Positions 1,346 through 27,794 of a stretch of DNA of 32,321 nt are shown here, piece after piece. The notes under the pieces are model-generated. The model was not told the DNA's origin. It searched no databases and was given only the letters and a program-made list of their open reading frames with translations. Position 1 is the stretch's first letter, and each line of letters begins with the position of its first letter. Source of the DNA: Betaproteobacteria bacterium (lineage in GTDB: Bacteria > Pseudomonadota > Gammaproteobacteria > Burkholderiales > Thiobacteraceae); the NCBI GenBank assembly GCA_025361165.1, contig JANYAU010000004.1:1-32321 (forward strand). Reading direction: 5' to 3'. Position numbers and translations under genes: made by a program.

Positions 1346-3445
1346 CTAAGGCAATTTCCCTATCAATAAGCTGGATAAGGGTTGCGGCTCTTGTAGCCAA
1401 TCGCCTTGCACGTAGTCAACATGAATTTGCTTCAAGTGGTCGAGAATCACTTCGGATTCCACAAATTCGGCAATCGTCTTGAGTCCCATCACATGGCCGA
1501 TGTGGTTGATGGCTTCCACCATGGCGCGATCAATCGGGTCGTTTTCCATGTCTTTCACGAACGCGCCGTCGATCTTGAGATAGTCCACTGGCAAATTCTT
1601 GAGATACGTAAAAGACGACAAACCACTACCGAAGTCATCCAATGAAAATTTGCACCCCTTCGCCTTAAGAGCGCGGATAAATTCAATCGCTTCTGTCAGG
1701 TTGGTGATCGCCGCGGTCTCCGTGATCTCGAAGCAGATCGCCGCATACGGAATTTTATTGATCGTGAACTGGCGTTCGACGAACTCAAGAAAATATTCGT
1801 CGCACAATGTATGCCCTGAGAGATTAACGGTACAAATCGACTTCCCGCCATTCGAGTGGGGAAAAAGCTGGTGAAAAGCGGAAAATGCCGCGCTGACCAC
1901 CCAACGATCAATCGACGGCATGAGATTATAACGTTCGGCCGCAGGAATAAATGCCATCGGCAATATCAACTCGGCATTATCGTCGAGCATGCGCAGCAGT
2001 ATCTCGTAATGCACATCCGCTTCGGCGTCGGGGAACAAGGGTAAAATCGGCTGGACAAACAGGCGCAGCCGGTTCTCCTCCATGGCGCGCGTGATACGCG
2101 TCACCCATTGCATCTCGCCATGGCGTTTTACCAGATCGACGTCTTCCAACTGATACACATGCACCCGATTACGTCCACGATCTTTAGCGGTGTAACAGGC
2201 GGCATCAGCCGAACTCAGCAAGCTCGATAGATTTTCGCTCTCGGCGGTAATCGACACTAAGCCAATGCTCACGCCGATGACGAAGGATTTATCGTGCCAC
2301 ACGAAGCGAAATTCTTTCACCATTTGCCGTAGCACTTCGGCGATTGGCTGCGCCTGCTCCAGTGCGCAATTTTCGAGCAGTACCCCGAACTCATCGCCCC
2401 CCAGCCGCGCCAAGGTATCGCGGTCGCGTAGCTTGGCTTGCAACAATACCGCGAGCTGGCGCAACAATTCGTCGCCCGCGCTGTGGCCGCAGGTATCGTT
2501 CACCACCTTGAATTGATCCAGGTCGAGATAGCACAAAGTATGCAATTGATTTTGCTCACGCGCGCCGGCCAATGCGCGCTCCAAACGCACCTCGAATTCG
2601 CGCCGATTGGGTAAACCGGTCAGCGTATCGTGCGCGGCTTGATAGGAAAGGCGCGAGGTCGCCTCTGCAATCCGCTCCTGCATGGTCTCATGCGACATTT
2701 TCAGCGCCGTGCCCATGCGGTTGATGCCACGTTCCAATACTTGCAGCTCGCCCGCCGATTCTTCCGCTACCCGCACATCAAGATTGCCCGCGCCGATCTG
2801 TTGCACCGCACTGGACAAGCGCTCGATCGGGCGCGTCACTTCACGGCTCATGCGAAACGCGAATAATCCGCTCGCCGCCAATCCCAACAGTGTAATGATG
2901 AGTCCGTTCCGAATCAGTTCGTTCTTACGTTGCACGGTGCTGGCACGGCTCATTTCCACATAGACGCGGCCGATACTCCGGCTATGCGGGACTTCGTTCT
3001 TAGCCGCACCCATTAGACTGCCCGAGATGTCTTCGATTTCGATCTGGCTCACTTGCACCGGCGCACTAAAGATCAGTGCGGAAGTGGTCTCTGCCATCGC
3101 AAAATTCAGCCCGGTATGCGCGTCTACCACGCGCGGCAAGCGATCTGGCTTGCCGCTCCCTACCAGGATGTCATTGTTGATATCTGTCACCACCACCCAA
3201 TTCACATCCGCTTCTTTGAGCGCGGCGTCGGTCAAGCGTTGCAGAATTTGATGGTTGCCGGAGAACACGCCGTATTCGCTCGCTGGCGCGAGTTGGCGTG
3301 CAATGGCCAAACCGCGATCACGCAGCGACTGCTCCAGATCGGCGATCCGGCTATTCACGAAATGAAAAGCCAGCACCGCGGCGATTAATGCCGCCGGTGC
3401 GAGCGCGAGAAACAATACCTTGCCTTTAATGCCCCAACGATTCAT
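1346..3445 (-). CDS. Membrane-bound HAMP-GGDEF-EAL c-di-GMP enzyme with periplasmic sensor region
   Basis: 699 residues. A membrane segment at about 8-28 is followed by a periplasmic region (about 30-175), a second membrane segment near 180-198, a HAMP linker, and then GGDEF and EAL domains. The diguanylate cyclase signature is intact (GGDEF at 349-353) and is preceded by an RxxD inhibitory site (RDRD, five residues earlier). In the phosphodiesterase domain the signature is EIL, not EAL (E481), but the other expected residues are present: N in VNLSG, E in EITET, DD in SLDDFG, K in LKID, E in IAEFVES and Q in YVQG. Both activities are therefore plausible, with one perhaps regulatory. It starts one base after the stop of the substrate-binding protein, so the two are co-translated; this suggests that protein feeds the periplasmic sensor region. 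Confidence 0.93.
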   Translation of the reverse strand: MNRWGIKGKVLFLALAPAALIAAVLAFHFVNSRIADLEQSLRDRGLAIARQLAPASEYGVFSGNHQILQRLTDAALKEADVNWVVVTDINNDILVGSGKPDRLPRVVDAHTGLNFAMAETTSALIFSAPVQVSQIEIEDISGSLMGAAKNEVPHSRSIGRVYVEMSRASTVQRKNELIRNGLIITLLGLAASGLFAFRMSREVTRPIERLSSAVQQIGAGNLDVRVAEESAGELQVLERGINRMGTALKMSHETMQERIAEATSRLSYQAAHDTLTGLPNRREFEVRLERALAGAREQNQLHTLCYLDLDQFKVVNDTCGHSAGDELLRQLAVLLQAKLRDRDTLARLGGDEFGVLLENCALEQAQPIAEVLRQMVKEFRFVWHDKSFVIGVSIGLVSITAESENLSSLLSSADAACYTAKDRGRNRVHVYQLEDVDLVKRHGEMQWVTRITRAMEENRLRLFVQPILPLFPDAEADVHYEILLRMLDDNAELILPMAFIPAAERYNLMPSIDRWVVSAAFSAFHQLFPHSNGGKSICTVNLSGHTLCDEYFLEFVERQFTINKIPYAAICFEITETAAITNLTEAIEFIRALKAKGCKFSLDDFGSGLSSFTYLKNLPVDYLKIDGAFVKDMENDPIDRAMVEAINHIGHVMGLKTIAEFVESEVILDHLKQIHVDYVQGDWLQEPQPLSSLLIGKLP

Positions 3446-3446
3446 G

Positions 3447-4391
3447 TTATTCGTGCTCCGCGCTCACCTTGATGCGTTCCAGCAACGTCGCTTCATCGTC
3501 CAGCACCAGACCGAGCGAACGCGCCACTTGATAATTCACACTGACTGAAAAATATTCCGGATATTGGGGTGGTGGCAAAGCGCCGCCGCCTGCCTGAAGG
3601 TAACGCTGAATGATCTCCCCCGCTTGCTGGCCGATTTGCGCCGGCGTGGAATACACCGCCGCCAAAGCGCCGGCGGTGACATAGGATTTTGAGAACGCAA
3701 AGAGTGGCGCCTTTGCGCGATAGCTGGTTAACAACACATTTTGCGCAGTATCGCGGTTAAACACTAAAGGGTCCGGCACCGCCAGCAACACATCGCTATC
3801 CATCAGCACTTTTTTCAGCGCCGGTAGCAGTTGTTCTTCCGAATTGACGAGTTCGATCTTGAGCTTCATATGACTTTGCCGGGCGCTGGTTTGTAACTCC
3901 CGCAAGCGGTCTTGAGATGTCGGCCCAAGCAATATGCCCACATTGTCGCGCGCCGGTAATGTCGCCTTAATCAGTTGCAGTTGGCGCACCATCGGTTGAT
4001 CGAGATAGAGCGCGCTCACCCAATTCTTCCCTGCGCCACGGGGCAGACTCTCGAAGCTCTGGCGGGGAATCAACAGATTGAACGTCGGCACAGAAACAGT
4101 TGAGGCCGCCACCGCTTCCGCGGCTTTCACCCCGACAGTGACCAATAAGTCACCCGGCAATCCCGCATCCAGTTCGTTCAACTGGCTCGTTTGCACAGTC
4201 TGGAATTTTTTTACCCAGCCCTTTTTTTCCAAACTGGCGCGCAACACTTGCGTCAACTCGACATAGGGTGCAGTGGTTTCACTCAGCACGACGAGGACGC
4301 GCCACTCGCTAGCGGCAGCCGCAGCGTCCGTATAGAGCGCCGTCCCCAAGTACAGCGCGCATAACGCAAGTATTGTTTTTATCAGGTTCAC
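3447..4391 (-). CDS. ABC-type substrate-binding protein, orphan (ABC_sub_bind family)
   Basis: 314 residues with a clear signal peptide (MNLIKTILALCALYLGTALYT, then an AAAAA stretch near the cleavage site), so it is probably periplasmic. The body has alternating strand/helix segments like two-lobed type I binding proteins of the PF04392 type: VLVVLSE near the start, DLLVTVGVKAAEAV, NVGILLGPTSQDR, DVLLAVPDP, LFAFSKSYVTAGALAAV and a C-terminal VNYQVARSLGL. No ABC permease or ATPase gene is next to it. It lies 15 bases after the TonB-dependent receptor and one base before the GGDEF-EAL gene. I infer a role as ligand sensor for the latter, though loss of its transporter, or transport through distant genes, remains possible. 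Ligand unknown. Confidence 0.85.
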   Translation of the reverse strand: MNLIKTILALCALYLGTALYTDAAAAASEWRVLVVLSETTAPYVELTQVLRASLEKKGWVKKFQTVQTSQLNELDAGLPGDLLVTVGVKAAEAVAASTVSVPTFNLLIPRQSFESLPRGAGKNWVSALYLDQPMVRQLQLIKATLPARDNVGILLGPTSQDRLRELQTSARQSHMKLKIELVNSEEQLLPALKKVLMDSDVLLAVPDPLVFNRDTAQNVLLTSYRAKAPLFAFSKSYVTAGALAAVYSTPAQIGQQAGEIIQRYLQAGGGALPPPQYPEYFSVSVNYQVARSLGLVLDDEATLLERIKVSAEHE

Positions 4392-4406
4392 AAGTAAGCC
4401 GAAGCG

Positions 4407-6362
4407 TCACCAGCCATAACGCATGGTCGTGAAATACTGCCGCTTGAAAACATTATCGTCGCGAAATTCGCGATACGAATCAAACACGCTTTGGCCAACC
4501 AGTGCGATCTCCAGCGGCTTGCCTGCCCATTTGAATTCCTTCGCCAGTTTGACGTCGGTGCGCCGGTAAGCCTTGAGCGTGCTGCCATCGCTCAATGGCG
4601 TCATGTCGGATACGTGGTACACCCCGATACTCACCTTCCATGCCTGCGGCAAGGAATACGCGGCAAGCAAATTGTAAACATGAATCGGCGTCGCGCTGAC
4701 GATGGACGCATAATCGCTCTCGACATGGGTATAGGAATGCCCCAGCCATATTTTCAAACGATCCCATTGCCAGCGGGCTTGGGTTTCAACGCCGTTCAGC
4801 GTCGCGCTATGCATGTTATGGAAGACGTAATATTTGGTATTGGTTGGCGCATTAAGTTGCGTGGTGGTGTCGATCAGATCATCTAACTCATCCTTATAAA
4901 TGCGCACGTCTAAACTTAGCCCAATACGCGGAAACTGTCCCAAATAAGCCACCTCGCGGCTGGTAATGCGCTCGGGTTTTAAGCCGCCGCCACTGAGGAA
5001 CCTCGGCACCGCTGCAGTGCTGGTAACGCCGCCCACACTAACCGGTAAATACAGGGTGAAATTGGCGTCGTCTTCGAGCAACGTCGGGGAACGTAATGCC
5101 TTGGAAACGCTTACGCGTAAACTGTGTTGCGGGCTCAGGTGGTAGGCGAGCGCAAACCGTGGAGAAAAATCGGTTCCGGTCAGGCTATGCCGCTCCAGCA
5201 TGCCCCCCACATTCACGACCCAAGCAGGCGTGGCGCGCCATTCCATATTGGCGAACAGGCTGCTCTGATGGGTATAAAAATTGGCTTGCGATCCGAGATA
5301 GAGCGGCGCCGCTACGCGATCCACCCGCGTCGTCAGTCCCCACGCCAGGCGCACGGTATCGGCCAAATGCTGTGTCCGCTGCAGTTCCAAATCATAGCGC
5401 TCGGCATCGGTATTCAACTCTAAATAAGTCGGCAACACCGTGACCACGCCGCTCGTGCTCTGTTGTGTCTGCGTCGCCTCATGCGAGGTCGTGACGGCGT
5501 GGTGGAACTGCACGCTCAACTCATCATCTGGCCCATACGTGCGTTGCCAACGCAGTTGCTGGAAATGACTAGTGAGACGCTGATCGTGGGATGGGTCTAG
5601 CGACTGGTCGGGAAAACCTTGGCCTTGATTACCGAAGGTGAGGCCCGCCTGAAATTGAAGTGCATCCGCCATGTTGAGGCGATAGTCGGCACGAGTGGTG
5701 AGCAGACCGATACGCTTGTCATCATGCCGGTCGGGAAATCCGCCGTCGCGCTGATACCCCAAGGTGACACGGTAAGCCAGATTATCTTTTACCCCCCCAT
5801 GACGCAGCGTCGCATCGGTTACGCCCTGGCCGCCGGTAGTCGCGGAGAATACGGTGCCGCGATCTTCCTGCGCAGTGCGGGTAATGATATTGATCACGCC
5901 GAGGAAAGAATTAGCACCGTAGCTGGCGGCATTCGGCCCGCGAATCACTTCGATGCGCTCGATATCTTCCATCGCGAGCGGCAAGGCGCTCCACGGCACT
6001 TGGCCGAACAAGGGCGTATACACCGAGCGGCCGTCCACCAGCACTTGCACGCGGCCGAAGTAATGGTCTACCAAACCACGCGCCACTACCGGCTCGTTGC
6101 CGCTATAGCGCCCCACGTAAAAACCCGGCACCAAGCGCAACAAATCGGCAATCTCGCGAAACCCCGAAGCGCGGATCATATCGCGATCGATGACCGTGAC
6201 CGCGCCCGGCGCATCGGCGACCGGTTGAGCCAGACGCGACGCCGAGAGGACAATCGGCACATCCTCCAGGTAATCTTGCTCAGAAACCGCCGCCCACCCC
6301 AGCCGGCTGTGCAACACGGTTAGCAATAACAATAGATCGAGCGCACGCCGTTCTGCTCGCAT
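4407..6362 (-). CDS. TonB-dependent outer-membrane receptor
   Basis: 651 residues. A leader with a leucine-rich core (LLLLLTVL) and a WAA cleavage region is followed by a possible TonB-box region (EDVPIVLSASR), a plug domain (about 40-155; QVLVDGRSVY, RIEVIRGPNAASYG, GVINIITR) and a beta-barrel that ends in an aromatic residue (MRYGW), as expected of outer-membrane barrels. The plug sequence resembles colicin I/vitamin B12/catecholate-type receptors, but the substrate cannot be called. A strong ribosome site (AAGGGGAGGGG) precedes the ATG. The gene starts 58 bases after dnaQ and leads the three-gene set with the substrate-binding protein and the GGDEF-EAL protein. I infer that it brings in, or detects, the ligand of that set. 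Confidence 0.92.
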   Translation of the reverse strand: MRAERRALDLLLLLTVLHSRLGWAAVSEQDYLEDVPIVLSASRLAQPVADAPGAVTVIDRDMIRASGFREIADLLRLVPGFYVGRYSGNEPVVARGLVDHYFGRVQVLVDGRSVYTPLFGQVPWSALPLAMEDIERIEVIRGPNAASYGANSFLGVINIITRTAQEDRGTVFSATTGGQGVTDATLRHGGVKDNLAYRVTLGYQRDGGFPDRHDDKRIGLLTTRADYRLNMADALQFQAGLTFGNQGQGFPDQSLDPSHDQRLTSHFQQLRWQRTYGPDDELSVQFHHAVTTSHEATQTQQSTSGVVTVLPTYLELNTDAERYDLELQRTQHLADTVRLAWGLTTRVDRVAAPLYLGSQANFYTHQSSLFANMEWRATPAWVVNVGGMLERHSLTGTDFSPRFALAYHLSPQHSLRVSVSKALRSPTLLEDDANFTLYLPVSVGGVTSTAAVPRFLSGGGLKPERITSREVAYLGQFPRIGLSLDVRIYKDELDDLIDTTTQLNAPTNTKYYVFHNMHSATLNGVETQARWQWDRLKIWLGHSYTHVESDYASIVSATPIHVYNLLAAYSLPQAWKVSIGVYHVSDMTPLSDGSTLKAYRRTDVKLAKEFKWAGKPLEIALVGQSVFDSYREFRDDNVFKRQYFTTMRYGW

Positions 6363-6420: not shown

Positions 6421-7113
6421 CTATTTATTCCACAAACACGTGCCTTTGCATTCTTTATCGATATCCGCCAACAATGCTGCGTGTGCGGTCAATTCTTCCG
6501 CGCTGGCATGCAATACACGCTGCGGCAAGGTTGCCGCAAAACCTGCGTCTGTCACACTCGTTTGCGCAGCCGAGCTCATCTCTATCATCAAGCTCTCCTG
6601 GCCGCGCGTCATGGCAAGGTACACCTCGGCCAACAACTCTGCATCGAGTAGCGCGCCATGTAGCGTGCGATTGGAATTGTCCACGCCATAGCGCTTGCAC
6701 AAGGCATCCAAATTATTTTTCTGGCCCGGGTGTAATTCTTTAGCCAGCTTCAAGGTATCGATCACCCCCGCACAACAGGTATTGATCGGATTTAAACTGA
6801 GCAATGCCAGTTCGTGATCGAGAAACCCCACATCGAAGGGCGCATTGTGAATGACCAGTTCGCCCCGTTCCACGAAACGCAGAAATTCCTGCACCACGTC
6901 GCCAAATTTAGGCTTGTCTTGCAGAAACTCGAGGGCGATGCCGTGCACTTGCTGCGCGCCCGCGTCGATCTCGCGCTCTGGATTCACATAACAATGAAAG
7001 TGATTGCCGGTGAGCCGGCGATTGATCATTTCCACCGCCCCCACTTCAATGATGCGATGGCCGAGTGCGGGGCTGAGGCCCGTGGTTTCGGTATCCAGAA
7101 TAATTTGTCGCAT
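6421..7113 (-). CDS. dnaQ: DNA polymerase III epsilon subunit, 3'-5' proofreading exonuclease
   Basis: 230 residues, near the usual length of about 240. It removes mismatched 3' ends during replication as part of the Pol III core. All three exonuclease motifs of the DEDDh family are present: Exo I with DTETTGL (D7, E9), Exo II with HNAPFDVGF, and Exo III with the catalytic histidine (HGALLDAELLA). The C-terminal part, which in the family binds the alpha subunit, is present (about 180-230). It lies 15 bases after rnhA, and the rnhA-dnaQ pair is common in proteobacteria. The call is secure from motifs and context. Confidence 0.95.
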   Translation of the reverse strand: MRQIILDTETTGLSPALGHRIIEVGAVEMINRRLTGNHFHCYVNPEREIDAGAQQVHGIALEFLQDKPKFGDVVQEFLRFVERGELVIHNAPFDVGFLDHELALLSLNPINTCCAGVIDTLKLAKELHPGQKNNLDALCKRYGVDNSNRTLHGALLDAELLAEVYLAMTRGQESLMIEMSSAAQTSVTDAGFAATLPQRVLHASAEELTAHAALLADIDKECKGTCLWNK

Positions 7114-7128
7114 AGCCTTCTCTCGCTT

Positions 7129-7569
7129 CTATTGAGTCGCACAACCTTTGTTGGCCAACTGATCCGCGCGCTCGTTGCCGTCATGCCCGGCATGCCCCTT
7201 GACCCAAAGCCATTCGACATCGTGTTGACTGGCAAGCTGATCCAACTCCTGCCACAGGTCGACGTTTTTCACTGGCTTTTTGTCGGCGGTTTTCCAGCCG
7301 CGTTTCTTCCAGCCAATAATCCACTCGCTGATACCTTTTTGCACATACTGCGAATCGGTGTGTAACTTCACCACACAGCGCCGGTTCAGAGACTCCAAGG
7401 CGCGAATGACGGCTAATAGCTCCATGCGATTGTTGGTCGTAGCGGGCTCGCCACCGCACAATTCTTTTTCCGTCTCGCCGAAGCGCAGTAACGCACCCCA
7501 GCCGCCCGGGCCGGGATTGCCTTTGCATGCGCCATCGGTAAAAATTTCCACGACTTCAGACAAGCTCAT
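7129..7569 (-). CDS. rnhA: Ribonuclease HI
   Basis: 146 residues after choosing the ATG at 7569; the ORF track begins 19 codons earlier with an arginine-rich stretch that does not belong to the family. An AAGGAGA ribosome site just before this ATG supports the choice. The enzyme degrades the RNA strand of RNA-DNA hybrids. The four catalytic acids are present: D12 in [16 protein letters not shown] in NNRMEL, D in HTDSQYV, and D in the [11 protein letters not shown] loop. The basic handle region ([16 protein letters not shown]) is intact. The start overlaps the end of the methyltransferase gene by 14 bases, and dnaQ follows directly, so the three are likely one transcript. Confidence 0.95.
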
Positions 7570-8332
7570 TCTCCTTGCGCGTGCGGCAATGCCCCGCCTC
7601 TTTTTGCGCCGCCGGGGCGATACCACGCTGCGCCGCCAAGCGTTCGCTCCAACTCGGCAAAATTAAACGCATCCCCGCTACGCGTTTTTTGGCGAGCAGA
7701 TAAAACACGCCGCCTCCCAGCGGCCACCAACGATCGCCCGCCGCTTCCATGAATTGCAGCCGCGCCAACCATTGCGCGCTTTGCAGCGGCGGCACATAAC
7801 ACGCCAATTGCCCCGCGACCACCTCGAAACCCAGTAGCGCTAACCAATCTTTTAGCCGGGGCAGGCCGATGAATTTACCGCACCAGGGATAGTCCACGCG
7901 GCGACGGCGCAACAGATGACACGCGCCCCAAAAGCTCAAAGGGTTAAAGCCGGTGATGAGCACCTGCCCTTCGGGCATAAGCACGCGCTCTACCTCGCGC
8001 AAAATTTGATGCGGCGTGGCAGAAAATTCCAATACGTGCGGCATGAGCACAAGATCCACACTTTGACTGGCGATAGGCAGGTGGTTGAAGTCGGCCAACA
8101 ATGAGGCGGGGCGATGCGTCCCCAGCGTGAGGCGCAAAGGAATGCGGCTGGCGCGTAACATATCATGTTGCGGCAAACCCAGTTGGAGTGCATTGAAGCC
8201 GAAGATATCGCTGACGATCTCGTCGAAATATGCTTGCTCGCGCGCCAGGACGTAGCGGCCCAAGGTCGTCTCGAACCACTGTCGCGCATCGCGTCGGCGT
8301 TCCTCGCCATGCGGCCCATTTAGATTTGGCAT
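7556..8332 (-). CDS. Class I SAM-dependent methyltransferase-like protein
   Basis: 258 residues. It resembles the Methyltransf_11-type gene that often lies beside rnhA and gloB in proteobacteria. The SAM-binding motif II and following segment are visible as [28 protein letters not shown] and [13 protein letters not shown] (shown here as landmarks near residues 95-140). Motif I is weak: no clear GxGxG is seen, only LRLTLGTHR followed by LLADFNHLP, so cofactor binding may be reduced. The C-terminal tail is basic and poorly conserved. The ATG has only a weak ribosome site. The gene is divergent from the gloB remnant, with about 20 bases between the two starts. Substrate unknown. Confidence 0.8.
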
Positions 8333-15977: not shown

Positions 15978-18104
15978 ATGAACGACAACGCCCTCGACCT
16001 CATACGTAATCCCGATCGACTCGACTCCCTACGCGCATTAGGTCTACTCGACACGCCTGCGGAAGAAGCATTCGACCGCTTGGCCCGATTAGCTGCGCGT
16101 CTCCTGCATACCCCCGTCGCGCTGGTGAGTTTGGTGGACGAAAATCGTCAGTTTTTCAAAAGTTGCTTCGGGCTGCCAGAACCCTGGGCAAGCTGGCGCG
16201 AAACACCCTTGTCCCATTCCTTCTGTCAGCATGTGGTGACGAGCAACGAGCCATTAGTGATCAGCGATGCGCGCATTCACCCCCAGTTGTCCACCAACCT
16301 GGCCGTCCGCGACCTAGGCGTTATCGCTTATCTCGGCATCCCGCTGACGCTGCCAAACGGACGGACTATAGGATCGTTCTGCGTGATCGATACCATCCCG
16401 CGTGCCTGGACCGAGGAAGATATTCATACGGTGCGCGATTTTGCCGCCTCGGTCATGAGTGAAATCGAATTGCGTACGCTACGCGGCAAATTAGAAGCGC
16501 GCGTTGCGGAACGGACAGCAGAACTACAACGCGCACTCGAATCCCTAAAAACTGCTCGTGCGGCGACCACCGTGGCGCAGGAGCAGCTCGGCGAAATTTT
16601 TGTGCGCATTACCGATGGCTTCGTCGCGCTCGATAAGAATTGGCGCTACACCTATGTCAACCAACGCGCAGCCGAGATGTTCGAGCGTACACCCGAAGAC
16701 TTGATCGGCAAGCCTATCTGGAGCGAATTCCCGGAGGGCGTGGGGCAGCCTTTCTATCATGCCTACCACCGCGCCTTAGCCGAGCAAGTCGCGATCACCA
16801 TTGAGGAATACTACGCCCCCTGGAAGCGCTGGTTCGAGAACCGCATCTACCCTTCGCCCGAGGGGATTTCGATTTATTTTCATGAGATCACCGAACGCAA
16901 GCGGACGGAAGCCTTGCTGAGCGGCGAGAAGCAGGTGCTAGAAATGATGGCGAAAGGCGCGCCCTTGAGCGATATCCTGACAACCATCGTGCGCAATATT
17001 GAAGCGCTGTTACCGGATATGCGCTGCTCCATTCTGTTGCTCGATGCCGATGGCGTCCACTTGCGCCACGGCGCCGCACCCAGCCTGCCGGACGCGTACA
17101 ACCGCGCTATCGACGGCGCGGAAATTGGCCCGCAAGCTGGTTCCTGCGGCACCGCGGCTTATCGCAACCAGGCGGTCATTGTCACCGACATCGCGACCGA
17201 CCCGCTGTGGGCCGATTACCGCGCACTGGCTTTGCCACACGGGCTGCGTGCTTGTTGGTCCACGCCCATACGTTCGGCGCATGGCCTGGTGTTGGGCACC
17301 TTCGCCTTGTATTACCGTGAGCCGTGCGCGCCCGGCCCGGCTGATCTCGAACTCATTGAGCGTGTCACACACCTGTCGGCTATCGCCATCGAGCGCAAGC
17401 AGGCCGAGGATCAGCTGCGCGATTTCGCGCATCAGCTCGAGCTGCTGTCGCGCCGCTTGTTGACGACACAAGAAGCCGAGCGCCGCCACATCGCGCGCGA
17501 ATTGCATGACGAGATCGGCCAACTGCTCACCGTAATAAAACTCGATTTGCAGGGCGTGTTGCGCCAGCCGGGCGTGCAGTCCGCGGTGCCAGCCCTGAAC
17601 GAAAGCATAGACACGATCGATCAATTGGTCGGTAAAGTGCGTGATCTGTCACTCAATTTGCGGCCGTCGATGTTGGACGACTTAGGATTGATACCCGCGC
17701 TACGCTGGTACGGGCAGCGCCAAGCGAAGCACCTAGGGCTCGCGATCGATTTGCGCTTACCGGCCTCCGCGCCGCGCCTGCCGGCGGAGATGGAAACCGC
17801 GTGCTTTCGCATCATTCAAGAGGCGCTGACCAATGCCGCACGCCACGCCCAGGCAACGCAAGTGACAGTGACCGTGCTCATCGGTCCACAGTACGCCGAG
17901 CTGACGGTGCGCGATAACGGTGTCGGCTTCGATGTTTCCAGCACGCAATACTCCGCGATCGCGGGCGGAGGCTTCGGCCTGCTCGGCATGCAAGAGCGTG
18001 CGCAATTGGTCGGCGGCACATTGCAACTGACGTCTACTCCCGGCGCAGGCACCTGCATTGCGGCACGATTTCCGCTGCCCATTGCCGAGGCACCACATTC
18101 GTGA
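15978..18104 (+). CDS. Cytoplasmic GAF-PAS-GAF sensor histidine kinase (HisKA_3, NarL type)
   Basis: 708 residues, no membrane segment. Domains in order: a GAF domain (about 20-165; VALVSLVDENRQFFKS, AYLGIPL, IGSFCVID), a coiled linker (about 168-205), a PAS domain (about 205-315; ITDGFVALDKNWRYTYVN, ISIYFHEITERKR), a second GAF (about 325-475; RCSILLLDADG, ACWSTPIRSAHGLVLGTFALYY), a HisKA_3 dimerisation region with the phospho-accepting histidine at 510 (ARELHDEIGQ), and an HATPase domain (NAARHAQA, DNGVGFD, GGFGLLGMQERA). The GTGA overlap with the next gene shows that the response regulator is its partner. Two GAFs and a PAS suggest a soluble intracellular signal, not identified. It starts behind a REP-like hairpin. 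Confidence 0.94.
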   Translation: MNDNALDLIRNPDRLDSLRALGLLDTPAEEAFDRLARLAARLLHTPVALVSLVDENRQFFKSCFGLPEPWASWRETPLSHSFCQHVVTSNEPLVISDARIHPQLSTNLAVRDLGVIAYLGIPLTLPNGRTIGSFCVIDTIPRAWTEEDIHTVRDFAASVMSEIELRTLRGKLEARVAERTAELQRALESLKTARAATTVAQEQLGEIFVRITDGFVALDKNWRYTYVNQRAAEMFERTPEDLIGKPIWSEFPEGVGQPFYHAYHRALAEQVAITIEEYYAPWKRWFENRIYPSPEGISIYFHEITERKRTEALLSGEKQVLEMMAKGAPLSDILTTIVRNIEALLPDMRCSILLLDADGVHLRHGAAPSLPDAYNRAIDGAEIGPQAGSCGTAAYRNQAVIVTDIATDPLWADYRALALPHGLRACWSTPIRSAHGLVLGTFALYYREPCAPGPADLELIERVTHLSAIAIERKQAEDQLRDFAHQLELLSRRLLTTQEAERRHIARELHDEIGQLLTVIKLDLQGVLRQPGVQSAVPALNESIDTIDQLVGKVRDLSLNLRPSMLDDLGLIPALRWYGQRQAKHLGLAIDLRLPASAPRLPAEMETACFRIIQEALTNAARHAQATQVTVTVLIGPQYAELTVRDNGVGFDVSSTQYSAIAGGGFGLLGMQERAQLVGGTLQLTSTPGAGTCIAARFPLPIAEAPHS

Positions 18105-18757
18105 ATGCGATCCGGGTTGTGCTGGCCGATGATCATCACCTGGTCCGCGCAGGCATCCGTTCTTTGCTGGAGACCCTCGCTGGGGTCGAAGTGGTAGCGG
18201 AGACCGGCGATGGACGCGAAGCGATCGAACTCGTGCGCAGGCACCGGCCGAATCTCGTGCTCATGGATATCACGATGGACGGTATGAACGGCCTCGATGC
18301 CACCGCGCGTCTCCTCAAGGAGTTCCCGCAACTGCGCGTCATCATTCTCTCCATGCATGCCAACGAGGAATACGTACGCCAGGCATTGCAAGCGGGCGCC
18401 GCGGCATATTTGCTCAAGGATGCCGCCACCGCCGAACTGGAGCTCGCCGTGCGCGCCGTGGCGCAAGGACAAACCTATCTTTCGCCGGCCATTTCACGCC
18501 AGGTCGTCGAAGAGTATCTGGGCGGGCAAAGCGCGCCGGCAGCGGGGCCGCTTACGCAACTTACCGCGCGCCAGCGCGAGGTGCTGCAACTCATCGCCGA
18601 GGGCAAGACCACCAAACAGACCGCGGCGCTGCTCAAGGTGAGTGTCAAGACCGTCGAGACTCATCGTGCGCAACTGATGGAACGACTCGGTATCCACGAT
18701 GTGCCGGGGCTGGTGCGCTACGCCGTGCGTCACGGGATGGTACACATCGACTCCTAA
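18101..18757 (+). CDS. NarL/FixJ-family response regulator
   Basis: 218 residues, starting at a GTG that overlaps the kinase stop in a GTGA. The receiver domain (about 4-120) has the acidic pocket (VVLADDHHLV), the phospho-accepting aspartate D56 (LVLMDITMDG), the switch residues (IILSMHANEEY) and the conserved lysine (YLLKDA). The C-terminal LuxR-type helix-turn-helix is complete (LTARQREVLQLIAEGKTTKQ, VKTVETHRAQLMERLGI). It is the expected output of the adjacent kinase. Target promoters are unknown; the adjacent c-di-GMP gene is the first to consider. Confidence 0.95.
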   Translation: MNAIRVVLADDHHLVRAGIRSLLETLAGVEVVAETGDGREAIELVRRHRPNLVLMDITMDGMNGLDATARLLKEFPQLRVIILSMHANEEYVRQALQAGAAAYLLKDAATAELELAVRAVAQGQTYLSPAISRQVVEEYLGGQSAPAAGPLTQLTARQREVLQLIAEGKTTKQTAALLKVSVKTVETHRAQLMERLGIHDVPGLVRYAVRHGMVHIDS

Positions 18758-18897
18758 GCCCTGCGGTTCACGGCTTGCGCCTGTTTCAGGTATTTAGCAG
18801 CCCTGATCTCAGGCATTACCCGATAGGCGGCGAGACGGCCCGCGCGGATACTTCTGGCTATCGACATAGGTGCGTCCTTCGCACTTGGAGCCATGCC

Positions 18898-21447
18898 ATG
18901 AATGCCAGCGCCCGCAATGAATCCCCCACCGAGTCGCCGCTAAAAGTACTGCTGGTGGATGACTCCCCGAGCTTCCTGTCTGCTGCCCAGCGGCAGCTTA
19001 GCTACCAGGCCGGTATCCAGTTTGTCGGTAGTGCCACCTCTGGCAGCGAGGCGCTCCGGCTAATCCAAGAACGCGCTCCCGATCTGGTGCTGATGGATAT
19101 CGTGATGCCGGACATGAACGGCATCGACGCCACCCGCCGCATCAAGCGTCATGCCAATGCGCCGCGAGTAGTGATGCTCACTTTGCATGACAACGCCGAG
19201 TATCGCTATCACGCGCAACTCGCGGGCGCCGATGGCTTCATTGCCAAACCCGAATTTGAGATGGCACTGCCGGCGATGATCGATCGCTTATTCAATTACT
19301 CTGCCGACGCAGAGACGCAATCTCATAGCGATGCATTGACGAAACAAACATTTGCACGGAATACAGCGCAAGAAAGCGAGGACCGCTTGCGGCTCGCGCT
19401 CGAGGCCGGCGAGGTGGGCATCTTCGACTGGAACCTCGAAACCGGCACCGTTACTTGGTCGCAAGAGCATGCGAAGCTGTTCGGGCTGCGCCTTGAGCAA
19501 TTCGATGGCACATATGCAGCCTTCGCGCGCTGCGTACACTCGGAGGATCTCCCGGCACTCGAACACGCTGTTGCCGACGCGCGCCAAACGCGCGGCATGT
19601 ATGAGCACAAGTTCCGCGTCATTTGGCCGGACGGTACGCTGCATTGGGTCTGTGGTAAGGGACGATTTTCCTATAGCGCGATAGGCCGTGCCGTGCGTAT
19701 GACCGGTATCGTGATGGACATTAGCGAGTCAGTGCATACCTTGCTCGACCTGGCAGAAAAATCCGCGCGTCTGCACGCCATTTTCAACGCCGATCCGCAA
19801 TGCATCAAACTGCTTGATGGCAACGGAATTATTCGGGAAATGAACCAATGCGGCTTGGATATCCTTGGTGTCACCGACCTACATGCCGTGATTGGAAAAT
19901 CACTGCTCGATTTTATCCTACCTCAGTATCACGAATCGGTAGCAGCATTCCTCCACGGTGCGCTGCAGGGAAATCGCAGTACGCTGGTGTTCGAGGTATA
20001 TTCCGCCGATGGCCGGCAACGCTGGGTAGAAAGCCACGCCGCCCTTCTGGACAGCCCCACCCATGGCGAAAATTTGATACTTAGCGTGACGCTGGATATA
20101 ACCGAACGTAAGCAAGCGGAAGAGCAATTAAGTTTTCTGGCGCAGCACGATGCGCTCACCGGCTTACCCAATCGTTTGTTGTTCACCGACCGTTTGCAAC
20201 AAGCCATGATCGAGGCAGAACGCCATCAGCGCTTGGCCGGCGTCGCCTTTCTCGATCTCGATAGCTTCAAAAACATCAACGATAGCCTCGGGCACGACAT
20301 CGGCGACGTAACGCTGGTGGCGGTGGCGGCACGCCTGCGCGAAGCCCTGCGCCCGGGCGATACCGTCGCGCGCCTGGGAAGCGATGAATTTGCGATCGTG
20401 TTATCCGACGTTGCTAAGGTGGAAGATACGCCGATGATCGCGCAACGCATTCTGGAAATCTTCACCGAGCCGTTTCACGTAGACGGGCGCGAAATGTTCA
20501 TCAGCGCAAGCCTCGGTGTCACGCTTTACCCGATGGACGGAAACGACGCCGAAACCTTGTTGCGCAATGCCGATACCGCGATGTACCGCGCCAAGGTGCA
20601 TGGGCGTTCCACATGCCAATTCTATACTGCCGAAATGACGCAGCGTGCCAACGAAGATATGGCGCTCGAAAGTGCATTGCGGCATGCCATTGCACGCAAG
20701 GAATTGTTGCTCCATTACCAGCCTATCGTCGATCTGAACAACGGCCGCATCCTCGGCGTGGAAGCGTTAATGCGCTGGCAGCATCCGCAACTCGGCCTTA
20801 TCCCGCCCGCGCGTTTTATACCATTGGCGGAGGAAAGCGGGCTGATCGTGCCCCTGGGTAGCTGGGCTTTGCGGCAAGCGTGCGAACAGACGCGCGCTTG
20901 GCGTAACGCCGGCTTCAACGATCTCTATGTCGCGGTCAATCTTTCTTCGCGGCAATTCCGGGAACCGGATCTGGCTAAAAGTATCGCGAAAGTTCTTACT
21001 GATACGGGTGTTGAAGGCATTCATCTGGTGCTCGAACTGACTGAGAGCATGCTGCTCACGAATATCGAAAATACGACCCAGATGATGCAGGAACTCGATG
21101 CCATGGGCGTACGCTTCGCGCTCGACGATTTCGGCACCGGCTATTCGAGTCTGAGTTATCTCAAGCGTTTTCCGATCGACGTGCTCAAAATCGATCAGTC
21201 TTTCGTGCGTGACATCACCACCGACCCTGACGATGCCGCGATTGTGCGCGCGATCATCACCATGGCGCACAGCTTGGGCATGCGCGTGGTGGCGGAAGGC
21301 GTTGAAACCCGTGAGCAGTTAAGTTTTCTTCACGCGAACAGTTGCGACGCGATGCAAGGTTATTATTTTAGTAAGCCCTTGCCGGCTAACCGGATAACAG
21401 AATTGATCGCGGGGAATACGCGGCTGGCTTTAGGATTTTGGCACTAA
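18898..21447 (+). CDS. REC-PAS-PAS-GGDEF-EAL c-di-GMP response regulator
   Basis: 849 residues from the ATG at 18898, which has GGAG seven bases before it; the longer track start is an upstream TTG without domain support. A receiver domain (about 15-130) has the DD pocket (LLVDDSPS), D67 (LVLMDIVMPDMNG) and K in FIAKPEF. Two PAS domains follow (about 160-285 and 290-415). The cyclase domain has GSDEF at 494-498, not GGDEF, a form found in several active enzymes, with an RxxD inhibitory site (RPGD) five residues before it. The phosphodiesterase domain has EAL at 622-624 plus NLSS, ELTES, DDFGTGYSS, LKIDQSFV, VAEGVET and QGYYFSKPL, all complete. I infer that the receiver is phosphorylated by the upstream kinase. 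It ends two bases before the stop of ftsB. Confidence 0.95.
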   Translation: MNASARNESPTESPLKVLLVDDSPSFLSAAQRQLSYQAGIQFVGSATSGSEALRLIQERAPDLVLMDIVMPDMNGIDATRRIKRHANAPRVVMLTLHDNAEYRYHAQLAGADGFIAKPEFEMALPAMIDRLFNYSADAETQSHSDALTKQTFARNTAQESEDRLRLALEAGEVGIFDWNLETGTVTWSQEHAKLFGLRLEQFDGTYAAFARCVHSEDLPALEHAVADARQTRGMYEHKFRVIWPDGTLHWVCGKGRFSYSAIGRAVRMTGIVMDISESVHTLLDLAEKSARLHAIFNADPQCIKLLDGNGIIREMNQCGLDILGVTDLHAVIGKSLLDFILPQYHESVAAFLHGALQGNRSTLVFEVYSADGRQRWVESHAALLDSPTHGENLILSVTLDITERKQAEEQLSFLAQHDALTGLPNRLLFTDRLQQAMIEAERHQRLAGVAFLDLDSFKNINDSLGHDIGDVTLVAVAARLREALRPGDTVARLGSDEFAIVLSDVAKVEDTPMIAQRILEIFTEPFHVDGREMFISASLGVTLYPMDGNDAETLLRNADTAMYRAKVHGRSTCQFYTAEMTQRANEDMALESALRHAIARKELLLHYQPIVDLNNGRILGVEALMRWQHPQLGLIPPARFIPLAEESGLIVPLGSWALRQACEQTRAWRNAGFNDLYVAVNLSSRQFREPDLAKSIAKVLTDTGVEGIHLVLELTESMLLTNIENTTQMMQELDAMGVRFALDDFGTGYSSLSYLKRFPIDVLKIDQSFVRDITTDPDDAAIVRAIITMAHSLGMRVVAEGVETREQLSFLHANSCDAMQGYYFSKPLPANRITELIAGNTRLALGFWH

Positions 21448-26006: not shown

Positions 26007-27794
26007 GTGAAACGCATCGCCCTGTTGGGCATGCCCAATACGGGCAAATCCACTTTCTTCAATCGCATCACTGGCGCGTCCGCGCGCGTGGGTAACTGGC
26101 CCGGCGTCACCATCGATCTCATGGGCGCGAAGGTGTTGATCGGAAGCGAGATGGTGGAAATTGTCGATCTGCCCGGCATCTACGATCTGCACGGCTTCTC
26201 CGACGACGAACAAGTGGTGCGGCATTTTCTCGAAAATAACGCCATCGATATGGCGCTGATCATCCTTAATAGTTGCCAGCTCGACCGCCAGTTAAGCCTC
26301 GCCTTGCAGCTCAAACAACTGCAACTGCCCTGCCTATTACTGCTGAACATGGCGGACGAAGCCAAACGCTTCGGTGTGAGCGTGGATGCGGAAAAAATGT
26401 CGCAACAACTCGGCATGCCGGTCTTAATGATGAGCGCTAAATACGGCGAGGGGTACAAGGCAGCATTCGATGAAATCACCCGTGTTTTGCGTCATGCGCT
26501 GCCGGTTCGCCCCGAGCGCATGCGCGAAGTCTTGGCGGCCGACGATCAAATCGAACAGGCGATGGAGCAGGTGCTAAAAGACTCGGTGCATATTCCACCG
26601 CGGCTCTCGGACGATCTCACGATGCGGCTCGATCGCGTCATGCTCCATCCCTGGTTCGGCTTGCCGATTTTCTTCGGCGTGATGTATTTATTGTTTCAAG
26701 CCATTTTTCTGCTCGGCACACCGCTGCAGACCGGCGTCAACTGGGCGCTACTCGCCTTCAAAGACTATGCCCTCATACCGCTGCTGGCATCGGCACCGGC
26801 TTGGCTCTCCGGCTTGCTCATCGACGGTATTTACAACGGCGTCGGCACGGTCGCCGCGTTCGTACCCATCATCATTTTGTTTTTCTTGTTTATGGCGATC
26901 GTGGAGGATACCGGCTACCTCTCGCGCGCGGCGTTCTTGATGGATGCGCTGATGGCGCGCATGGGCTTAGACGGGCGTAGTTTCGTTATGATATTGATGG
27001 GCTTCGGCTGCAACGTGCCGGCGCTGATGGGCACACGGGTAATGCGCTCGCGCGCGTTGCGGCTGCTCACCATGCTAGTGATTCCGCTCTCGCTGTGCTC
27101 GGCGCGCCTGCAAGTCTTCATCTTCATCACCGCCGCCTTGTTCTCCCCCAAGGCCGCACCGCTGGTGCTGTTCAGCCTGTACTTGGTCAGTTTTAGCGCC
27201 GCCTTTCTGACGGCGGTCTTGTTCAAGCGCCGCTTGGTGAGCCACGAACCGTTCGTGTTGGAATTGCCGCCCTATCGCTTCCCGACGCTACGCCAAATGG
27301 TGTTGCGCGGCTGGCACGAGGTGCGACATTTTCTCCATCGCGCGACTAAATTCATTGTCGCCGGTGTGGTCCTGGTGTGGCTCTTGACCCATTTTCCCAG
27401 CGGCGTCGCCCCGGGCAGCAGCGCTACCTGGGCCGGGGATATCGGCGCCTTACTGGGACCGATACTGGACCCAGTGGGGATTAACCACCAACTGGCGATT
27501 GCCCTGATCTTCGGCTTCGTCGCCAAAGAAATCGTCATCGGCTCGCTCGCCGTCATTTACGGCATGGAAGGCGCGGCGCTGACGCATCACATGGCGGCCA
27601 GCCTGGACTGGGTGCAAGCGTATAGCTTCATGCTGTTCACCCTCATCTACACGCCTTGCTTGTCCACCGTCGCTACCCTCAAGAACGAATCGAAAAGCTG
27701 GCGCTTCGTCGCCACTTCGCTCGCTTGGTCTATCGGGCTGGCCTGGGTCGTGAGTTTCGCGTTTTATCAAACGGCACGGGCGCTGGGTTACTAG
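26007..27794 (+). CDS. feoB: Ferrous iron transporter FeoB, compact form
   Basis: 595 residues from a GTG start, shorter than the E. coli protein of about 770. The N-terminal G-protein domain has G1 (GMPNTGKST), G2 threonine in NWPGVTID, G3 (DLPGIYDL), G4 as NMAD and a G5-like SAKYGEG. The membrane part has the two Gate regions, with GFGCNVPALMGTRVM, FVAKEIVIGSL and TPCLSTVATLKNE, and about eight membrane segments ending at YQTARALGY. The reduced length seems to come from shorter loops and no C-terminal extension, not from truncation, since all core motifs are present. No feoC is visible. Likely Fur-repressed through the box upstream of feoA. Confidence 0.93.
   Translation: MKRIALLGMPNTGKSTFFNRITGASARVGNWPGVTIDLMGAKVLIGSEMVEIVDLPGIYDLHGFSDDEQVVRHFLENNAIDMALIILNSCQLDRQLSLALQLKQLQLPCLLLLNMADEAKRFGVSVDAEKMSQQLGMPVLMMSAKYGEGYKAAFDEITRVLRHALPVRPERMREVLAADDQIEQAMEQVLKDSVHIPPRLSDDLTMRLDRVMLHPWFGLPIFFGVMYLLFQAIFLLGTPLQTGVNWALLAFKDYALIPLLASAPAWLSGLLIDGIYNGVGTVAAFVPIIILFFLFMAIVEDTGYLSRAAFLMDALMARMGLDGRSFVMILMGFGCNVPALMGTRVMRSRALRLLTMLVIPLSLCSARLQVFIFITAALFSPKAAPLVLFSLYLVSFSAAFLTAVLFKRRLVSHEPFVLELPPYRFPTLRQMVLRGWHEVRHFLHRATKFIVAGVVLVWLLTHFPSGVAPGSSATWAGDIGALLGPILDPVGINHQLAIALIFGFVAKEIVIGSLAVIYGMEGAALTHHMAASLDWVQAYSFMLFTLIYTPCLSTVATLKNESKSWRFVATSLAWSIGLAWVVSFAFYQTARALGY

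Follow-up and report, generated by a model that had tools for sequence, protein, structure and literature searches.

The window analysed here is a 32,321-nucleotide stretch of DNA from a member of the Thiobacteraceae deposited as Betaproteobacteria bacterium (GenBank assembly GCA_025361165.1, contig JANYAU010000004.1, positions 1 to 32,321 of the forward strand). According to the open reading frame (ORF) calls, three genes on its minus strand form one unit, encoding a TonB-dependent receptor (TBDR), a substrate-binding protein (SBP) of family PF04392, and a sensor enzyme with the domain order sCache_4-HAMP-GGDEF-EAL. The gaps between them measure 15 bases (TBDR/SBP) and 1 base (SBP/sensor), and no ABC permease or ATPase was found within the unit among the ORFs and their Pfam matches. 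An earlier sequence-only reading had described a receptor, a binding protein and a GGDEF-EAL enzyme with these same gaps and without ABC genes, and the ORF calls and Pfam bear out both points.

The TBDR (4407..6362, minus strand, 651 aa) consists of a Plug domain and a β-barrel (Pfam Plug and TonB_dep_Rec). Its Plug domain (PF07715) is encoded at 5895..6221 (minus), and a TonB-box-like segment, DVPIVLSASR, occupies residues 34-43 (6234..6263, minus); the segment was recognized from the sequence and a comparison of N-termini, in which it recurs as [DE]xPxVL[ST]x[ST]R in the sampled TBDRs of this type of trio. Pfam analysis of the receptor detected no STN signalling domain at the N-terminus. The secreted SBP (3447..4391, minus, 314 aa) matches ABC_sub_bind (PF04392, 5.6e-15) and has a signal peptide without a lipobox. 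Its AlphaFold2 (AF2) model (pLDDT 94.5) is predicted to adopt a two-lobed type I SBP fold with a cleft, and the nearest structures are the TrpX-type proteins 3lft and 3lkv and CD0873; 3LFT and 3LKV are also the nearest PF04392 proteins by sequence.

The inner-membrane sensor enzyme (1346..3445, minus, 699 aa) has the Pfam architecture TM-sCache_4-TM-HAMP-GGDEF-EAL, TM being a transmembrane segment. Its periplasmic sCache_4 domain (PF09984; residues 33-171; 2933..3349, minus) is PDC/PAS-like and of the type found in the GacS detector: the sensor profile has a match in 5o7j, the periplasmic detector of GacS (E-value 6e-13), and Foldseek returned CitA and WalK for the domain. The HAMP linker (PF00672) lies at 2699..2851, the GGDEF domain at 2165..2638 and the EAL domain at 1385..2098, all on the minus strand. 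Both diguanylate cyclase and phosphodiesterase activity are plausible from the residues present, because the GGDEF motif, the RxxD I-site and the EAL catalytic motifs (EILLR, VNLSG, FEITET, LDDFGSG, LKIDG, TIAEFVE and YVQG) are all intact. Promoter and terminator scans scored no better than shuffled sequences.

Loci for comparison were gathered by SBP similarity alone, so that the neighbouring genes had no say in the choice, from relatives, a named-genome collection and samples of the class and the phylum, and flanks of 5-9 kb were read. At a threshold of at least 120 bits against the trio SBP profile, and with identical SBPs removed, 162 loci were retained, 141 of them with enough flanking DNA. 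A sCache_4-HAMP sensor lies directly downstream of the SBP in 133 of these 141 flanked unique loci, a TBDR directly upstream in 108, and both in 101. The conservation of the trio is far above chance, and the co-occurrence search that the sequence-only reading had proposed as a check of its idea thus returned a conserved neighbourhood. A PF04392-type ABC permease adjoins the SBP in none of the 141 loci. This zero does not reflect a failure of detection, because for five low-scoring PF04392 proteins (L055, L056, L057, L062 and L282) the identical script did recover an adjacent permease; in the SBP tree, the trio-type SBPs are split from these five ABC-operon proteins with 100% SH-aLRT support.

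At least 65 of the 273 genera sampled from the class carry the system, which also reaches, with weaker matches, another class of the phylum; a search of the plasmid collection for annotated trios gave only two weak Massilia matches. The three genes are kept together at differing chromosomal sites (rnhA-dnaQ, fabAB and others) in many families. In the window (6421-7626) and at L032, L034, L041-L045, L067-L072 and L082, the GGDEF-EAL version occupies a conserved position with dnaQ and rnhA as same-strand neighbours, and it might be co-transcribed with these two genes. A divergent second trio, comprising a TBDR, a PF04392-like SBP and a GGDEF-EAL protein with a weak sCache_4 match, was observed at L063:4327-9522 in a genome that also carries a main trio (L040). 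Five loci (L250, L251, L252, L279 and L280) hold a TBDR and an SBP without an adjacent sensor; the pairs of L250 and L252 adjoin fabA-fabB, the place of the full trio in Pseudomonas-type genomes, as if the sensor had been lost or moved. The SBP-sensor pair is the core of the system and the TBDR its front end, as follows from the persistence of the pair (L227, L232) in two genomes, G340 and G406, that yielded no Plug-domain protein. An SBP with a histidine-kinase sensor and without an adjacent TBDR was also observed at L090, L097, L104-L106, L117, L122 and L128, mostly in Aromatoleum/Azoarcus.

The input half of the sensor is constant and its output is exchangeable. Across the 162 loci, the output is a histidine kinase with or without a receiver at 113, GGDEF-EAL at 30 and GGDEF alone at 6; at 13 the sensor is missing, cut off or unclassified. 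In example sensors, Pfam shows sCache_4 and HAMP followed by HisKA-HATPase-REC, HisKA-HATPase-REC-Hpt, HisKA_3 or GGDEF. The SBP tree requires a minimum of 16 switches of output, an approximate figure given several weak branches. A case of output swapping that is independent of the tree is provided by L073 (GGDEF), L076 (HK-REC-Hpt) and L078 (GGDEF-EAL), whose SBPs are 70-77% and sensor input halves 65-71% identical; L073 and L076 share 77% identity in the SBP and 71% in the input half, and their outputs are unrelated. Because the input half stays constant while the outputs swap, the SBP travels with the periplasmic-to-HAMP module of the sensor and not with cyclic di-GMP (c-di-GMP) as such. 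The earlier proposal of a c-di-GMP signalling system therefore holds in part: the trio is conserved, including its GGDEF-EAL form, but c-di-GMP enzymes are only one of its outputs and histidine kinases are commoner.

A hybrid kinase closes the trio at seven Pseudomonas-type loci (L266-L272). At L266 and L269, read in detail as representatives of the seven, the trio directly precedes fabA and/or fabB; the gene upstream of it in L266 reads as GpsA, which we take to be PA1614. Against the crystallised PA1611 REC domain (PDB 7c1j), the receiver of the L266 kinase scores 213 bits over 122 residues. The Pseudomonas-type trio kinase thus appears to be the orthologue of PA1611, placing PA1611 in the same family, and from the gene order in Pseudomonas-like genomes we infer that PA1613 is the TBDR. 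The PA1612-PA1611 operon is reported to be co-transcribed with fabA and was described as seemingly unrelated to it (PMC3462791). PA1611 relieves the inhibition of GacS by RetS (PMC4866733) and phosphorylates HptB (PMC7467158). The pathway running through HptB governs the diguanylate cyclase HsbD (PMC5085249), so the kinase-bearing version, too, comes out close to c-di-GMP. No report of a signalling role for PA1612 or PA1613 was found among the open-licence papers searched. The window has a TBDR, a PF04392 SBP and a sCache_4-HAMP sensor in the order of the PA1611 trio and shares its input half, but the output of PA1611 is HisKA-HATPase-REC acting on RetS and HptB and that of the window is GGDEF-EAL. 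The window sensor was accordingly rejected as a PA1611 orthologue, as it lacks the histidine kinase and receiver leading to HptB; its trio is a sister of the PA1611 trio with another output.

The NCBIfam match nearest to the window TBDR is the TOL_0244 family (NF053590), in which membership was rejected because the score of 250 bits lies below the curated cut-off of 645. Receptors of this TOL_0244/OmpS group, of which OmpS was reported to be necessary for alkane detection (PMC6304351), also occur in trios of a receptor, a periplasmic protein and a sensor, but their periplasmic partner is YfiR-like where the window has an SBP. Where DNA downstream of the TOL_0244-family TBDR was available (28 loci), a YfiR/HmsC-like protein directly follows the receptor in 23, and in most of these a homologous sensor comes next; the scanned examples combine DUF4154 with CHASE8-HAMP, and HisKA was seen in one. 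This parallel trio of TOL_0244-family TBDR, DUF4154 protein and CHASE8-HAMP sensor was observed at L284-L313 (e.g. L299:1417-4813 and L287:133-3700). The input halves of the CHASE8 and sCache_4 sensors are homologous over the whole TM-PAS-TM-HAMP region (hhalign 99.4%). The YfiR-like and SBP profiles have no sequence match (hhalign 0.6%), and sequence homology between the two was not detected; the likeness rests on a published structural comparison, in which 3LFT and 3LKV were the best Dali matches of the YfiR structures (PMC4655355). These parallels suggest a single kind of periplasmic go-between, of which PF04392 SBPs and YfiR would be two forms.

Among described systems, YfiBNR (TpbB) of Pseudomonas aeruginosa shares with the window an outer-membrane partner, a periplasmic go-between and a PAS-type sensor with HAMP-GGDEF, but it has no TBDR: its periplasmic member YfiR is a small protein of the DUF4154 type, its outer-membrane member YfiB is an OmpA-like lipoprotein, and the sensor domain is CHASE8. 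Assignment of the window to YfiBNR was rejected on each component, as the SBP matches PF04392 only and not DUF4154 (PF13689), Pfam gives the sensor as sCache_4 and not CHASE8 (PF17152) despite its homology to CHASE8 sensors, and the outer-membrane partner is a TBDR and not an OmpA-like lipoprotein. In NspS-MbaA of Vibrio cholerae, which also occurs in Sinorhizobium, the periplasmic part of a GGDEF-EAL protein responds to a transporter-less periplasmic binding protein (PMC8967002). The window has the corresponding genes, namely an SBP without its own transporter encoded with a periplasmic-domain GGDEF-EAL protein, but NspS belongs to a different SBP family and binds polyamines, and the described NspS-MbaA has no outer-membrane receptor. 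FecA-FecR-FecI likewise begins with a TBDR heading a trans-envelope signal, but it involves an STN domain, FecR and a sigma factor. FecA-style cell-surface signalling was rejected, as the window receptor has no STN domain and neither FecR nor an ECF sigma factor was found among the flanking genes scanned. A PF04392 ABC importer was also rejected, given the lack of an adjoining permease or ATPase in the window and of a PF04392-operon-type permease in the host genome. Searches of open-licence papers on the trio and its parts turned up none that describes it.

The host assembly, which is 93.65% complete, contains a single detected Plug-domain protein, the TBDR of the window, although one could have been missed; near relatives have 2 or 3 per genome and more distant genomes up to about 19. 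The SBP is the only PF04392 gene detected in the assembly, which also encodes two TonB C-terminal domains and 37 GGDEF domains.

We consider it probable, with reservations, that the trio is a relay through three compartments, in which the TBDR supplies a ligand, the SBP captures it and docks on the sCache_4 domain, and the HAMP linker shifts the balance of GGDEF and EAL. The TonB-driven receptor would govern the entry of a scarce ligand into the periplasm, where the transporter-less SBP would bind it and, in one conformation, contact the sCache_4 domain, the presumed docking site; the change would pass via HAMP and tip the enzyme towards its diguanylate cyclase (GGDEF) or its phosphodiesterase (EAL) activity. 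In relatives, this input module drives histidine kinases, one of them the PA1611 orthologue in Pseudomonas. The relay probably informs the machinery that controls biofilm life of something in the cell's surroundings. The anatomy of the unit, the conserved gene order, the absence of a transporter, the constant combination of SBP and sCache-HAMP module and the intact active-site motifs are observed, and the conserved TonB box, together with the lone TBDR and lone PF04392 gene detected in a host with TonB, also favours this relay. Ligand import, direct SBP-sensor contact, the sign of the response and the identity of the ligand come in by inference. Precedents are known for signalling between a periplasmic protein and a sensor in NspS-MbaA (PMC8967002) and in YfiR-YfiN (PMC4655355), and for SBP-receptor signalling in general (PMC9602780). 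By analogy, we read the window as a trans-envelope relay resembling YfiBNR and NspS-MbaA with a TonB-gated entry, in which the TonB receptor as outer element and the swappable outputs would be new.

Several points weigh against the relay. A TBDR is absent beside the pair in 32 of the 133 sensor-bearing loci (e.g. in Aromatoleum), so import by a TBDR is not obligatory; a natural SBP-sensor fusion was looked for as proof of contact and none was found; and the tree distance correlations are high but unspecific (SBP-sensor 0.80, SBP-TBDR 0.81), being high for all pairs. The structure models are of single chains, and the role of the outer-membrane protein could be to bind the SBP, with no import of a ligand. 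The YfiR parallels make docking of the SBP on the sensor the natural reading and sequestration by the TBDR its serious rival. Under sequestration, the SBP is a brake (or an activator) of the sensor, and a ligand-occupied or TonB-engaged TBDR captures or releases it as YfiB does with YfiR. The succession of TOL_0244-type receptor, YfiR/HmsC-like protein and, mostly, CHASE8-HAMP-type sensor, the homology of the two sensor input halves and the structural likeness of YfiR to the very PF04392 SBPs nearest to that of the window all speak for it, and capture of the SBP by the TBDR fits almost as well as delivery of a ligand. We nevertheless hold it to be rather unlikely, as the profiles of YfiR-like proteins and SBPs do not match in sequence, the SBP retains both lobes and the cleft, and SBP-sensor pairs lacking a TBDR exist as well. 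We know of no TBDR that sequesters a periplasmic protein.

An uptake unit, in which the sensor reads the imported ligand by its own sCache_4 domain and the SBP buffers the ligand or passes it to an unlinked importer, seems improbable to us. SBPs usually serve importers, and sCache/PDC domains such as that of CitA, a Foldseek match, bind small molecules directly; on the other side, neither the host nor the flanks of the 141 loci offer a PF04392-operon-type permease, and the SBP is tied more tightly to the sensor (133/141) than the TBDR is (108/141). The family name PF04392 and the TrpX-type fold would suit an SBP that supplies a distant ABC transporter in the usual manner of PF04392 proteins. 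This is the least credible alternative, because the SBP is the sole PF04392 gene detected in the host, no cognate permease was found there, and the real ABC-type PF04392 genes adjoin their permeases and fall outside the trio clade; the sequence-only reading had named such a transporter as a refutation of its idea, and the idea survived this check, as no cognate permease turned up next to the SBP or elsewhere in the host. Co-transcription of a merely inherited neighbourhood without functional coupling would account for the fixed place of the trio beside rnhA-dnaQ in the lineage of the window, but it is largely refuted and very doubtful, as the trio is intact at unrelated sites, with differing outputs, across many families.

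Beyond the window, the chances seem to us evenly balanced that these loci represent a broad, undescribed class of TonB-gated sensors, in which a dedicated TBDR clade would act through a PF04392- or YfiR-type go-between on a GacS-type (sCache_4/CHASE8) sensor with interchangeable outputs (c-di-GMP enzymes or kinases). PA1611 would then be a member, PA1612 and PA1613 its missing input, and the only detected TBDR of the window organism would serve signalling and not nutrition. Such a class would provide a concrete candidate input for PA1611 and for further GacS-type detectors that contribute to decisions on biofilm life. It would also connect TonB receptors with the control of second messengers and kinases by a route that involves neither transport nor sigma factors. 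If the relay proposed above is right, many annotated "orphan ABC binding proteins" and "iron receptors" are mislabelled signalling parts.

Weak hints to the ligand come from the TrpX-like fold, the alkane-linked receptor kin, the gammaproteobacterial fabAB adjacency and an importer encoded in the window. The last is a FeoB-type ferrous iron transporter (26007-27794), observed in a host whose only detected TBDR belongs to the trio; it faintly suggests that a siderophore role of that TBDR would be less needed. A 121-aa ORF at 743-1108 has no Pfam match and by eye resembles a small GIY-YIG-type protein; no relative of it was found among the other trio loci. A second signalling block at 15978-21447 encodes, in tandem, a GAF/PAS HisKA_3 kinase, a LuxR-type response regulator and a REC-PAS-GGDEF-EAL protein.

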